Virus record (IMG/VR): IMGVR_UViG_3300037193_000697
Span: 1-42,557 of that record
DNA from: a virus
Reading direction: 5' to 3' (one strand)
Length of the DNA: 42,557 bases
Shown here: piece after piece, positions 201 through 42,557 of the stretch
Numbering within the stretch: the first letter of the stretch is position 1
How the letters are laid out: each line of letters opens with the position of its first letter
Notes under the pieces: model-generated
Database searches by the model: none
Seen by the model: only the letters and a program-made list of their open reading frames with translations
What the model was told of the DNA's origin: nothing
Made by a program: the position numbers and the translations under genes

Positions 201-214
201 GTTTCCATAGGAAC
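201..214. repeat. dispersed palindrome copy 1 (GTTTCC-ATA-GGAAC)
   Basis: Half-sites GTTTCC and GGAAC are separated by 3 nt. It starts immediately after one stop codon and ends 12 nt before the next start codon (GTG at 227). It belongs to the 27-copy family described in the findings. Confidence 0.75.
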
Positions 215-226
215 TGAGGTGACGAA

Positions 227-550
227 GTGAGCAACCACCGCACCAAAATCGAGGGCAACCCCGGAGCGTGGCGAGGAGAGTGCTCCTGCAGCGAGCACGG
301 GGAGTGGATGAGGGTGCTGCAGCAGGCCGAGGACTGGATCATCGCCCACGAAGCCGAGGTGGCACGAGCCCGTGCGCGGGTCGGCAAGAGAGTGTCGCTG
401 AAGTCGGAGCGCGACTGGTACCTACTGCAAGCCGAGAACATGGCGAACGCGGAGCCGGAGCGCATCTTGTGGAAGCGGCTGGCCGACGAACTCACCACCC
501 GGCTGGGAGACACGGATGCTCCCAGCGAGGGTGACGAGACCTTATGGTGA
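227..550 (+). CDS. small hydrophilic protein, function unknown
   Basis: A 107-residue, charged, probably helical protein (residues 27-75 rich in Glu, Arg and Ala) with an early Cys pair (CSC near residue 19). No membrane segment or known domain is visible. It starts with GTG; the weak ribosome site GAGGTGACGAA overlaps the flank of the palindrome at 201-214. The next gene starts 20 nt after its stop codon. I do not recognise a family. Confidence 0.7.
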   Translation: MSNHRTKIEGNPGAWRGECSCSEHGEWMRVLQQAEDWIIAHEAEVARARARVGKRVSLKSERDWYLLQAENMANAEPERILWKRLADELTTRLGDTDAPSEGDETLW

Positions 551-570
551 ACCTGAGAGAAAGGCAGATC

Positions 571-870
571 ATGACCATCGCTCCCGCTCTACAGCAGTTC
601 GTCGCGCAGGTGAAGAACCTCCGGCCCGACGCGAAGGTCCAGTACGGAGAGCCCGACGGGATCGGGTTCGTACGCGAGGTGTCCTTCGACGCGCAGACCG
701 GCAAGGTGCTGAAGCCCATCTTGGAGGTCGGCATCGACCCGCGCATCGCGCGCTTCAAGATCGGCGGCAGGGAGCGTCGGATGACCGTCACCGTCGTCTC
801 CGACACCCGGGCCGACTACCGCGATCCCTTCCCCATCGAGGACGTAGCCGAGGTCCTGAAGGAGAAGTGA
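571..870 (+). CDS. small protein, function unknown, last forward gene on the left
   Basis: A 99-residue protein starting MTIAPALQQF. I chose the ATG at 571 over an in-frame ATG at 544 because GAAAGG lies 6 nt upstream of it, while the earlier ATG overlaps the previous gene. The sequence looks like a mixed alpha/beta fold with a strand-rich middle (VREVSFDAQTGKVLKPILEV). No family is recognised. Its stop lies only 3 nt from the stop of the convergent reverse gene at 874, and no terminator hairpin fits between them. Confidence 0.75.
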   Translation: MTIAPALQQFVAQVKNLRPDAKVQYGEPDGIGFVREVSFDAQTGKVLKPILEVGIDPRIARFKIGGRERRMTVTVVSDTRADYRDPFPIEDVAEVLKEK

Positions 871-873
871 CCG

Positions 874-40261: not shown

Positions 40262-40421
40262 GGCGGCGTGTGGTGTCAGGAGTCCACGACAGTTGACCGA
40301 CAAGCCGGGTGAAGTGACCTGTCTTGGCTGTCAGAAGACTGTCCTCATGGCGGACGCGGAGATTCGCGAACGTCTGAAAGCAAACAAGTTTCCACGTGGA
40401 AAGAGAAGGAGCAACCAATGA
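40215..40421 (+). CDS. small zinc-ribbon-like protein
   Basis: A 68-residue protein starting MPKKWHLARRKGPPPEAACG from a GTG with AAGGAG 6 nt upstream. It contains a lone Cys and a C-x2-C (VTCLGCQKTV) typical of a short zinc ribbon, then a basic helix (AEIRERLKANKFPRGKRRSN). The last codons pass through palindrome copy 25 and the ribosome site of the next gene; stop and start overlap (ATGA). Confidence 0.72.
   Translation: MPKKWHLARRKGPPPEAACGVRSPRQLTDKPGEVTCLGCQKTVLMADAEIRERLKANKFPRGKRRSNQ
40388..40402. repeat. dispersed palindrome copy 25 (GTTTCC-ACGT-GGAAA)
   Basis: Spacer of 4 nt; ends 15 nt before the ATG at 40418, next to the ribosome site AAGGAG. Confidence 0.7.
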
Positions 40422-41779
40422 ACGTAGGAGATGTCCTCCGTACCGCCGAAGACTTCGTGGCCCTGCCTGTCGGGTCCCGGATCAGGGGCAACCGGACATG
40501 GACGAAGCAGGAGGACGGGCGCTGGCACCGTGACGGCAGCACGATGGTCCGCGAGAACGGGTGGAGGCTCAACCACCTGCGGGTGGACTTCATCCCCTCT
40601 CGGTTCGCGGTGGGTGACCCGCTGATGACGATGAACGACTTCCTCGAAGTCCCCATCGGCACCGTCATCGTCGCCACCAACAACCGATCTGTCAGGTACA
40701 CCAAGATCGCCGAGGATCGCTGGGACTACAACGGCACCACCCACTCCACGGCGGACGGGTCGTTCACCTACAACGGGTACAACATCATCGCGGAGATGCC
40801 CGAGGGGACGAGCAGGGCACGGAGGGCGACACTGGATTCGGTGAAGTGGAACTTCCGCACCATCGCCATGTCCGCAGCGATCTCGAACGGCATCCCGCAG
40901 GACCCTGTGAAGCGGGTGCTCTCCGCGCTGAACGCCGACCTCACCGACTTTCCTCTGGGAAAGGGGGTGCCGGTGCTGTCCAACGAGGCACCCTCCCTGC
41001 CGAACGGGTCGTTGGTGTTCACCGGCAGCCCGAGGCGGTGGAACAACTTCGGCATGTTCGCCATCAAGGACGGGGCGTTCACCCACGTGCTCGGTCCTCG
41101 CACCTACATGGACTCGACGGTGACGGTCGCGCAGATCGCTGGCGAGGAGGTGGTGGCCGACTGGTTCACCGGCGAGGGTACCGACGAGGACGAGACGGCG
41201 ATCAAACTCTTCAAGGCCCGAGCGTGGCGTCTCGGGGAGAAGGCGAAGGCTGAGAACCGGTGGTGCGGTGAGTACGAGCGGGCGATGGAGCGCGCCGGGA
41301 TCACCGCTGACTCCCTCATCGGGGTGGACCTGCCTCCTGCGGCTGGCGATCAGGTGACGCCGGAGGGGGCGGCGGCGCTGCCGGAGGGCAGCATCCTCGT
41401 GTGGCAGCACACTCACGGGCTGGCGCTGTTCGTCCGCTCTGCTCGGAACAACGCAGCGGGGACGACTCGGCTGGCTGGCTACTCCGACAATGGCCGGAAC
41501 CTCGGTCACTATCAGGACAGCATGTTCATCGGCTGGATCGAGGGCGAGGGGACCGACATCCGTATGCCGCGTCACGTGACGATGCCGCAGATCGACCGCA
41601 TCGCACCGATCGGCACCCGGGTGAAGATCGCCAACGACACCTACGTGAAGGCGCGGGACGAGCAGTGGACCAACGCCCCCGCCAACCCCACCGGGATTCC
41701 TGAGACCGGTCGGTGGAGGCCGCAGTCGTTCTCCACCACCGACATGACGTACATCACCCGCATCTTGGACCTCCTGTGA
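40418..41779 (+). CDS. large protein of repeated beta-rich Trp/Gly modules
   Basis: A 453-residue protein starting MNVGDVLRTAEDFVALPVGS. At least five segments of 55-65 residues share a (L/I)PxG(S/T)xI start, strand pairs and a conserved Trp: about 1-58 (ALPVGSRIRG), 66-128 (VPIGTVIVATN), 195-250 (LPNGSLVFTG), 315-375 (LPEGSILVWQH) and 390-453 (APIGTRVKIAN). The middle (255-310) is helical. The pattern suggests multi-domain ligand or glycan binding, but no known family fits. The next large gene begins with the same module. Confidence 0.82.
   Translation: MNVGDVLRTAEDFVALPVGSRIRGNRTWTKQEDGRWHRDGSTMVRENGWRLNHLRVDFIPSRFAVGDPLMTMNDFLEVPIGTVIVATNNRSVRYTKIAEDRWDYNGTTHSTADGSFTYNGYNIIAEMPEGTSRARRATLDSVKWNFRTIAMSAAISNGIPQDPVKRVLSALNADLTDFPLGKGVPVLSNEAPSLPNGSLVFTGSPRRWNNFGMFAIKDGAFTHVLGPRTYMDSTVTVAQIAGEEVVADWFTGEGTDEDETAIKLFKARAWRLGEKAKAENRWCGEYERAMERAGITADSLIGVDLPPAAGDQVTPEGAAALPEGSILVWQHTHGLALFVRSARNNAAGTTRLAGYSDNGRNLGHYQDSMFIGWIEGEGTDIRMPRHVTMPQIDRIAPIGTRVKIANDTYVKARDEQWTNAPANPTGIPETGRWRPQSFSTTDMTYITRILDLL
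40948..40963. repeat. dispersed palindrome copy 26 (CTTTCC-TCTG-GGAAAG)
   Basis: Perfect 6-bp arms and a 4-nt spacer, inside the modular gene (encodes FPLGKG, between modules). Confidence 0.75.
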
Positions 41780-42048
41780 CCACCATCAGGGAGGTTCTCG
41801 ACGCGCACATCGAGGACACCGAACTCGTCGACCGGCTGGAGGCTGCGCTCATCGAGCGCGAGGACGGGGTGGCCGACCTGCTCCGGCTGGCTGGTGCGCA
41901 GTTCGGCATGTTCCCCGAGATCGTGGCCGAGGTGCTGGTCACCGTCGGGGTGGGGAGCCCGATCTCCGAGACGGAGCGGGCGATGGTCCGGCAACAGTTC
42001 GTGGCGCTGATGGAGCGCCTCCGCAATGAACACGAGAACGGGTCCTAG
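41776..42048 (+). CDS. 90-residue helical protein, unknown
   Basis: Starts MTTIREVLDAHIEDTELVDR from a GTG overlapping the previous stop (GTGA). Almost wholly helical (LEAALIEREDGVADLLRLAG, EIVAEVLVTVGVGSPISETE) with an acidic surface; it may form a coiled coil or bind a partner. Possible distant relation to the 96-residue protein at 37668. Confidence 0.72.
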   Translation: MTTIREVLDAHIEDTELVDRLEAALIEREDGVADLLRLAGAQFGMFPEIVAEVLVTVGVGSPISETERAMVRQQFVALMERLRNEHENGS

Positions 42049-42069
42049 ACCCAGAGAGAGGGCAGAAGC

Positions 42070-42557
42070 ATGACTGTTTCCACGATGGAAGCGTTGGAGG
42101 CCGTGCCGGTAGGGCAGGCCATCAGGATTGGCGAGGACGCCAATCAGACGTGGGACCGCACGGCGGAGGGCTGGACCCGCAACGAGATGACCATCTCCTC
42201 GGAGTACCTGCGCGGTGCGGTCGACTCCGGGGTGGTGAGGGTGTGGAACTCCTCCGCCCCGGAGCCGGGGGATGTCTTCACCTACGGCTCCTACACCTAT
42301 CTCGTGATGCGGGTGGACGAGGAGAAGAAGAGCGCGCTGTCGGCGTTCTTCTCTGACACCACCTGCTACGGGATGACCGAGTTCGTCGACTGGGGGCTGT
42401 GGTCGAAGGTCCCTACGAGCCAGCACCCCGAGTGGCTCACCCCGATTGCGCGTGGGATGGCGGTGAGGTGGATGGAGACCTACGACACCCTCGCTGCCAC
42501 GATCGCGACACGGGATCGGTACGCGCAGTCCGCCAGCCTCGACTTCGACACGGTGAA
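42070..42557 (+). CDS. modular protein related to the 453-residue neighbour, runs off the window
   Basis: At least 162 residues starting MTVSTMEALEAVPVGQAIRI, with GAGAGGG upstream. Residues 1-58 repeat the Trp/Gly module (VPVGQAIRIGEDANQTWDRT, EGWTRNEMTISSEYLRGAVD); a second module-like part follows (EPGDVFTYGSYTYLVMRVDE). A palindrome lies in codons 3-8. The 3' end is outside the window. Confidence 0.78.
   Translation, partial: MTVSTMEALEAVPVGQAIRIGEDANQTWDRTAEGWTRNEMTISSEYLRGAVDSGVVRVWNSSAPEPGDVFTYGSYTYLVMRVDEEKKSALSAFFSDTTCYGMTEFVDWGLWSKVPTSQHPEWLTPIARGMAVRWMETYDTLAATIATRDRYAQSASLDFDTV
42076..42092. repeat. dispersed palindrome copy 27 (GTTTCC-ACGAT-GGAAGC)
   Basis: Spacer of 5 nt; begins 6 nt after the start of the ATG, so it overlaps the first codons of the last gene. 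Confidence 0.6.

Follow-up and report, generated by a model that had tools for sequence, protein, structure and literature searches.

Dispersed palindromes of a viral contig and a candidate helix-turn-helix protein that may read them

What might a virus gain from carrying the same short palindrome, TTCC-N3-7-GGAA, 27 times along its DNA, and which factor reads it? The question is raised by IMG/VR virus record IMGVR_UViG_3300037193_000697, a linear and probably incomplete soil-phage stretch of 42,557 bp that we analyzed as a whole and refer to here as the window. We interpret its palindromes, at a probability of about 0.7, as a lineage-specific address that would be recognized by a cognate helix-turn-helix (HTH) protein, the candidate being the product of a lone gene at 33493-34284. 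Close relatives are found to differ in the whole palindrome set, rewritten in place with the flanking DNA still alignable, which is the signature of a co-changing site-reader pair.

Palindromes of the window

The original prediction had counted at least 27 copies where about 2 were expected and had proposed that selection acts on the nucleotide sequence itself. All 27 were found, within 1-4 nt of the positions given there and with the same spacer split (N3 x4, N4 x16, N5 x5, N6 x1, N7 x1), confirming that the dispersed palindromes are real, and Markov models gave matching expectations of 1.9 (order 1), 2.2 (order 2) and 1.3 (order 4) copies, and no more than 7 in any of 300 simulated runs. Selection at the nucleotide level is likewise borne out, as 18 copies lie in genes, in all three reading frames as had been noted, versus 2.0±1.2 (maximum 5) after synonymous-codon permutation within genes, and TTCC/GGAA with its overlapping pairs ranked top when all tetramer pairs were scanned without bias. 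The copies prefer intergenic, early-region positions: 9 of the 27 are wholly noncoding in a window that is 7.1% noncoding (p = 7e-5), and the right arm is the denser one, as predicted, holding 15 copies in ~10 kb (right of 32611) versus 12 in 32.6 kb. Seven of the 27 stand 0-60 nt ahead of a start codon, with genes taken from simple codon-usage calls whose single start positions may be off. The actinobacterial SOS (LexA) box, GAAC-N4-GTTC, had rightly been set aside, since the half-site order here is GTTCC..GGAAC and the reversed order, GGAA-N3-7-TTCC, occurs once in the window.

That the copies stem from chance, from codon bias or from a mobile repeat has a vanishing probability. Only the shortness of the eight fixed bases speaks for it; chance and codon bias are refuted by the codon and Markov shuffles and by the noncoding enrichment, and mobile insertion does not produce the in-place replacement with conserved flanks described below for relatives. 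The sites (located by pattern match and placed relative to genes by the gene calls) and two landmarks among them are:

203..213, TTCC-ATA-GGAA, intergenic, 13 nt ahead of a + strand gene start
2715..2726, TTCC-CTGT-GGAA, in a gene
4157..4168, TTCC-CGAA-GGAA, in a gene
8691..8702, TTCC-CTCA-GGAA, in a gene
14681..14692, TTCC-CGAG-GGAA, intergenic, in the structural operon
15402..15413, TTCC-CACA-GGAA, in a gene
19541..19552, TTCC-TCCG-GGAA, in the major capsid gene
23830..23841, TTCC-ATGT-GGAA, in a gene
25908..25918, TTCC-ATA-GGAA, in the portal gene
28538..28550, TTCC-TCGTA-GGAA, in the gene directly upstream of terminase
29558..29569, TTCC-AGAT-GGAA, in a gene
31438..31449, TTCC-ATGT-GGAA, in a gene
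32799..32813, the sole N7-spacer palindrome, in the gap that precedes the lone HTH gene
33212..33223, TTCC-CGAT-GGAA, in the same gap as the N7 site
33493..34284, + strand, lone gene between the divergent structural and early operons, 263 aa, HTH predicted around residues 89-115, candidate for binding the palindromes
34393..34405, TTCC-CGGAT-GGAA, in the gap that follows the lone gene
34530..34558, + strand, sigma-70-like promoter match TAGACA-17-TATACT preceding the right-arm operon, a consensus match (1 found, 0.2 expected)
34612..34623, TTCC-CTCG-GGAA, 54 bp downstream of that promoter's -10 box, with the first start codon 26 nt further on
35546..35557, TTCC-ACAA-GGAA, at a gene end, ~15 nt before the next start
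35896..35907, TTCC-CGGT-GGAA, in a gene
36151..36161, TTCC-TGA-GGAA, in a gene
36544..36555, TTCC-ACCG-GGAA (CCGGTTCC/GGAACCGG), intergenic
37006..37018, TTCC-GTTCG-GGAA, in a gene
37931..37941, TTCC-ATA-GGAA, at a gene end, with 13 nt to the following start
39112..39124, TTCC-AGCAG-GGAA, in a gene
40050..40063, N6-spacer palindrome, intergenic
40390..40401, TTCC-ACGT-GGAA, intergenic, 16 nt ahead of the gene that begins at 40418
40950..40961, TTCC-TCTG-GGAA, in a gene
42078..42090, TTCC-ACGAT-GGAA, near the beginning of a gene (5' end)

The N7 palindrome (32797-32815) is also terminator-like on the - strand, with a stem followed by CCGTTTTTGT, and lies directly upstream of a - strand operon.

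Palindrome families and their replacement in relatives

Relatives were retrieved as 80 IMG/VR loci by one terminase query, so that they are not mutually independent, and their palindromes were identified with an unbiased scan for over-represented gapped palindromes. No locus among the 80 was enriched for TTCC-N-GGAA like the window. The original prediction had held that relatives not keeping the palindromes would reduce the signal to chance or codon bias; the sequence is indeed not kept, but the rule proved misleading, as the relatives own different palindrome families. Nearly all of them carry a dispersed palindrome of their own, in about two dozen kinds and mostly at 10-37 copies, and the best palindrome scores for 19 related contigs plus the cultured phage Hyperion ranged from 1e-10 to 1e-80, with order-3 Markov nulls at 1e-2 to 1e-5.

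These families include TTTAGG-N4-CCTAAA (x22 in G002), TTTAGTNACTAAA (x29 in G003, x8 in G006; the G003-type palindrome reads GTTTAGTNACTAAAC), TCAGT-N3/4-ACTGA (G007), a TTAAG-type palindrome (x17 in G008), TTAG-N5-CTAA (x31 in G009), GTTGG-N4-CCAAC (x27 in G011), TGACGAC-NN-GTCGTCA (x27 in G020, x10 in G022, x19 in G023), TGTCCAA-NN-TTGGACA (x29 in G031) and GTTTC-NN-GAAAC, which occurs 37 times over 49 kb, mostly in genes, in G030 (loci L144-L146); the G019 palindrome is weak, at 5 sites. Spacers vary by one base in G007, G008 and G019 as well. Cultured Arthrobacter, Microbacterium and Curtobacterium phages also possess palindromes of their own, namely GGTCGG-N4-CCGACC (Tank, Rizwana, SilentRX, AWGoat), GGGTCG-N6-CGACCC (BruhMoment), GCCGGT-NN-ACCGGC (Odyssey395, MellowYellow), GCCGGA-NN-TCCGGC (Ranunculus), TCTAGC-N-GCTAGA (Sunfish), GTTCAG-N4-CTGAAC (Kithara) and, within Cluster EG, GATTTCC in Phinky and GATCAACC in the others. 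Two control phages from outside the terminase group carried only other repeat types (CTAA-N6-TTAG x7 in Paschalis and CGTCGACG in Angelicage), and we therefore do not claim dispersed motifs as exclusive to this group. In the Gordonia phage Angelicage (L165, 20000-59215), CGTCGACG occurs 43 times versus ~7 expected.

How one family gives way to another can be seen in G014 and G015, which share 58 reciprocal best protein pairs at 82.6% mean amino-acid identity, with G014 carrying ATCGG-N4-CCGAT x18 and G015 carrying GTTGG-N4-CCAAC x16. Their sites fall mostly in the same gene intervals, and 13 of the 18 G014 sites could be flank-matched to a G015 site above a random-position threshold, some of these matches being weak. 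The same is seen in Cluster EG, where all four Phinky GATTTCC sites have Hyperion GATCAACC counterparts with near-identical flanks, only the core of both arms being altered. Because a whole site set is altered together at fixed places, a trans-acting reader with changed specificity is needed, and we consider it very probable that a phage factor acting in trans uses the palindromes as its DNA sites.

The lone gene as candidate reader

In nearly every genome, one lone gene of ~210-330 codons sits at a divergent-operon junction between long noncoding gaps, or at the right genome end in the cultured phages; in G007 no such gene was found. The window's copy is flanked by gaps of 720 and 365 bp that together hold four palindromes, and across genomes 17 of 19 have palindromes in these gaps (43 sites versus ~7.9 expected by length, a ratio inflated by the general intergenic preference). 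The lone genes are linked through chains of weak-to-strong phmmer matches, many with an HTH-like core such as NITGAAKALDVPISTFRPYALAGEVL. AlphaFold modeled the G011 protein as a long helix plus an HTH at 88-114, a block with predicted local distance difference test (pLDDT) scores mostly >90, and the window protein with a similar helix pair (89-96, 101-115) at pLDDT ~60-76 across the pair. PHROG 32919, of unknown function, matches 8 of 18 lone-protein subfamily members, Pfam holds no family for the lone protein, and the lone protein, taken singly as query against viral contigs, gave no matches; we file the window protein in the family by its place, HTH register and weak similarity.

Changes in this protein appear to go with changes in the palindrome. 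Of 59 G014/G015 orthologue pairs, none is less conserved than that of the lone gene, at 16% of the shorter protein and with 38% for the next. Conversely, G003 and G006 are far less similar as a whole (66% identity), yet they have the same palindrome and almost the same recognition helix, DVAPATVTLWKRLGRAL. In Cluster EG, the phages that carry GATCAACC, the divergent OneinaGillian among them, have VSST or VSTT in the putative helix and Phinky has YSQA, while Odyssey395 and MellowYellow differ from Ranunculus in the innermost half-site base and in a few helix residues. A partial Mantel test of HTH against palindrome distances, given core-protein identity, returned r = 0.44 (p = 0.004, n = 12). 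On these grounds the lone HTH protein is likely the trans-acting factor.

Could another DNA-binding protein be the reader? The window encodes two small proteins resembling the ribbon-helix-helix (RHH) type on the - strand, one (32611-32772) beginning the structural operon and the other (28481-28711) directly upstream of terminase, and a D12-class adenine methyltransferase gene that adjoins a ParB_N-domain gene (29261-30576, - strand), the ParB_N family being present in 22 compared genomes. That one of these RHH proteins, the ParB_N/methyltransferase pair or a host factor does the reading is improbable. The RHH and ParB_N genes do exist in the window, and the Mantel test does link an RHH family to the palindromes, but the RHH protein is 96% identical in G014 and G015 despite their wholly different palindromes, on which we rejected it as reader; the RHH binders named in the original prediction are unsupported for the same reason. 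A host factor is contradicted by phages that share a host yet differ in palindrome (Hyperion and Phinky on M. foliorum; Odyssey395, Ranunculus and SilentRX on A. globiformis).

Several observations weigh against the lone HTH protein as cognate reader. The Mantel correlation is higher for a 52-aa RHH family (r = 0.61) and for a RecA family (r = 0.65, n = 7), so that this test alone is not decisive; between G014 and G015 that RHH protein is 96% identical, which excludes it, and the RecA 87% identical. A fast-evolving lone gene could also differ between these two for other reasons. The nearest relatives of the window protein match it at only 23-25% identity, with phmmer E values of 0.002-0.007, profile comparison placed its HTH in the same register as that of a better-supported subfamily at a non-significant match, and PDB sequence and Foldseek fold searches with the lone protein returned nothing significant. 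Among the sites themselves, the N7 and N6 spacers are odd for a single dimer, and most in the window are distant from any predicted promoter.

Half-sites and the RNA hairpin alternative

Aligning the 54 half-sites of the window gave the consensus G-K-T-T-C-C-H, with G at position -2 in 27 of 54, G, T, C and A at position -1 in 33, 20, 1 and 0, and H (A, C or T) after TTCC in 51. Fixed arms of 7-8 bp and a constant spacer are thus absent, each half having four fixed bases plus G/T at -1 and the spacers running from 3 to 7. The variation between 2 and 3 that had been reported for T- and A-runs reflects a degenerate outer base rather than run length. Outer bases were also said often to stay complementary, which did not hold up: -1 pairs numbered 15 of 27 versus 13.7 expected from independent halves (p = 0.34), complementarity at -2 was borderline (p = 0.05), and further out it fell below chance. 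The unit in the window is two independently read half-sites rather than a stem maintained by pairing.

This bears on the suggestion of an RNA or single-strand hairpin or a flexible dimeric DNA-binding protein, of which the second part fits best and the first finds neither stem covariation nor G-U tolerance. As an explanation, transcript stem-loops with variable loops (boxB-like, for processing, stability or protein binding) would suit the many sites 13-35 nt ahead of start codons, the variable spacers and the GNRA-like sense centers (24:2 in Rizwana, 10:1 in G011, 12:3 in G014). With no covariation between the outer bases of the two halves, however, an RNA hairpin is unsupported, and sense-strand mismatches in one-mismatch copies of relatives were A-C 30 times versus G-U 15, with no G-U excess. 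Its arms are, moreover, constant within a genome and jointly rewritten between genomes, and centers lack polarity in G030, Hyperion, G007 and the window (p = 0.59 for the window), leaving the hairpin very unlikely. Centers are asymmetric and oriented with transcription in Rizwana (p = 0.0002), G003 (0.018), G009 (0.016), G011 (0.011) and G016 (0.016). In Rizwana (L085, L149), sense-strand centers read GCAA or GTAA in 24 of 27 clearly directed sites and flip with operon direction.

Proposed mechanism and function

We propose that the palindromes act as multi-copy double-stranded DNA sites, two inverted G-K-T-T-C-C-H halves 3-5 bp apart in 25 of 27, for a phage-encoded, dimeric, sequence-specific regulator, the 33493-34284 protein being the best candidate. 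The lone protein would bind the palindromes directly and would dimerize through a flexible part that tolerates variable spacers. It would be made early, probably under autoregulation, and would bind leaders and sites between and inside genes genome-wide, by anatomy like the Cluster A repressor on its stoperators, with the address and reader of each lineage presumably changing together as all copies are rewritten in place. Binding would most likely limit or stage transcription, both at promoters and through an elongation block.

A stoperator-like transcriptional role remains tentative, at slightly under even odds, and draws on the analogy to Cluster A together with the concentration of sites in the early region and leaders, in relatives often 13-35 nt before starts. 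The same sites and reader might instead serve genome-scale organization (condensation, partition, replication, packaging or self-marking), which we regard as unlikely though far from negligible. Sites span structural and early regions alike, and the 37 sites of G030 are evenly spaced (gap coefficient of variation 0.42 versus 0.96 for random, p<0.0004), as are those of G007 and G003; the minimum gap in the window exceeds random (p=0.02), Rizwana has a site near each genome end (518 and 65750), and candidate readers have long helices and low-complexity linkers. A purely structural role does not predict the transcription-oriented centers of Rizwana, G003, G009, G011 and G016 (p 0.0002 to 0.018), nor does it sit well with a site density that peaks next to the lone gene and within the early operon. 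We give transcriptional control a larger share than the structural role.

Taken as a lineage-specific address with its cognate HTH reader, the system may go one step further. We lean slightly toward an apparently lytic actinophage group with a private-address system, in which one hypervariable HTH protein per phage would read 10-37 palindromes that are re-coded together in place, and which may keep out co-infecting relatives or insulate the phage from them. Among the window proteins scanned, from an incomplete viral contig, no integrase was recognized. If true, such a system would offer a natural series of ~25 protein-operator pairs, useful for learning how HTH proteins choose their DNA, and the cultured pairs Hyperion/Phinky (candidate readers gp104 and gp107) and Odyssey395/Ranunculus (gp123 and gp110) make the reader question directly testable.

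Elsewhere in the right arm, three neighboring + strand genes (38687-40007) are paralogue-like, with common W..LR...Q and CCLG/MG.GC patterns, and a 453-aa protein (40418-41779, + strand) has internal repeat segments and also resembles the gene at 42070-42555 (+ strand).

Comparison with known systems

The start-associated sequences (SAS) of Cluster K phages are asymmetric. They had been offered as the closest analogy; the dispersed palindromes of Clusters O and EG and the stoperators of Cluster A are closer. SAS resemble the window palindromes in being a repeated, phage-specific motif with some copies right before start codons, but they are closely linked to translation starts (PMC4351075), a linkage that the window lacks, with 7 of 27 sites 0-60 nt before a start.

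A many-copy dyad throughout the genome, as in Clusters O and EG, is present in the window (27 versus ~2 expected). Cluster EG Microbacterium phages carry inverted repeats, GATCAACC-NN-GGTTGATC, in a report that names no reader and no turnover (PMC7302621). They resemble the window group in terminase and portal kinship, in dispersed short palindromes near early-region starts and in a lone right-end gene (Hyperion gp104), and differ in having 8-10 copies of 16-18 bp with a constant 2-nt spacer, whereas the window has 27 copies with 12 bp cores and spacers of 3-7, two thirds of them in genes. Cluster O phages carry 17-bp repeats, TGTTCGG-N3-CCGAACA, of which Corndog has 34, and three predicted DNA-binding proteins, none assigned as reader (PMC4351075). 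Likeness to the window here lies in ~30 dispersed dyad sites that crowd toward one end of the genome, with roughly a third in genes, in a proposed dimeric binder and in genomes without recognized lysogeny genes; the Cluster O arms are invariant over 7 bp with a constant N3, whereas arms and spacers of the window vary.

In Cluster A, 20-30 oriented stoperators block elongation and motif distance follows repressor distance (PMC6550527). The window group shares the 20-30 sites genome-wide; a cognate HTH regulator (a candidate here) and a motif distance that may track regulator distance, which the Mantel correlation and the G014/G015 and Hyperion/Phinky comparisons support, would be further likenesses, whereas the stoperators are asymmetric, transcription-oriented 13-mers of temperate phages and the window sites are palindromic and without orientation. 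In the papers searched, few of them from subscription journals, we found no report of turnover, of a reader, or of palindromes in Cluster AP-like or Curtobacterium phages. Dispersed palindromes as such were thus already known from Clusters O and EG, where they had been left, in 2015 and 2020, as sites of unassigned function for an unnamed dimeric protein; what is new is their turnover and a named candidate reader.

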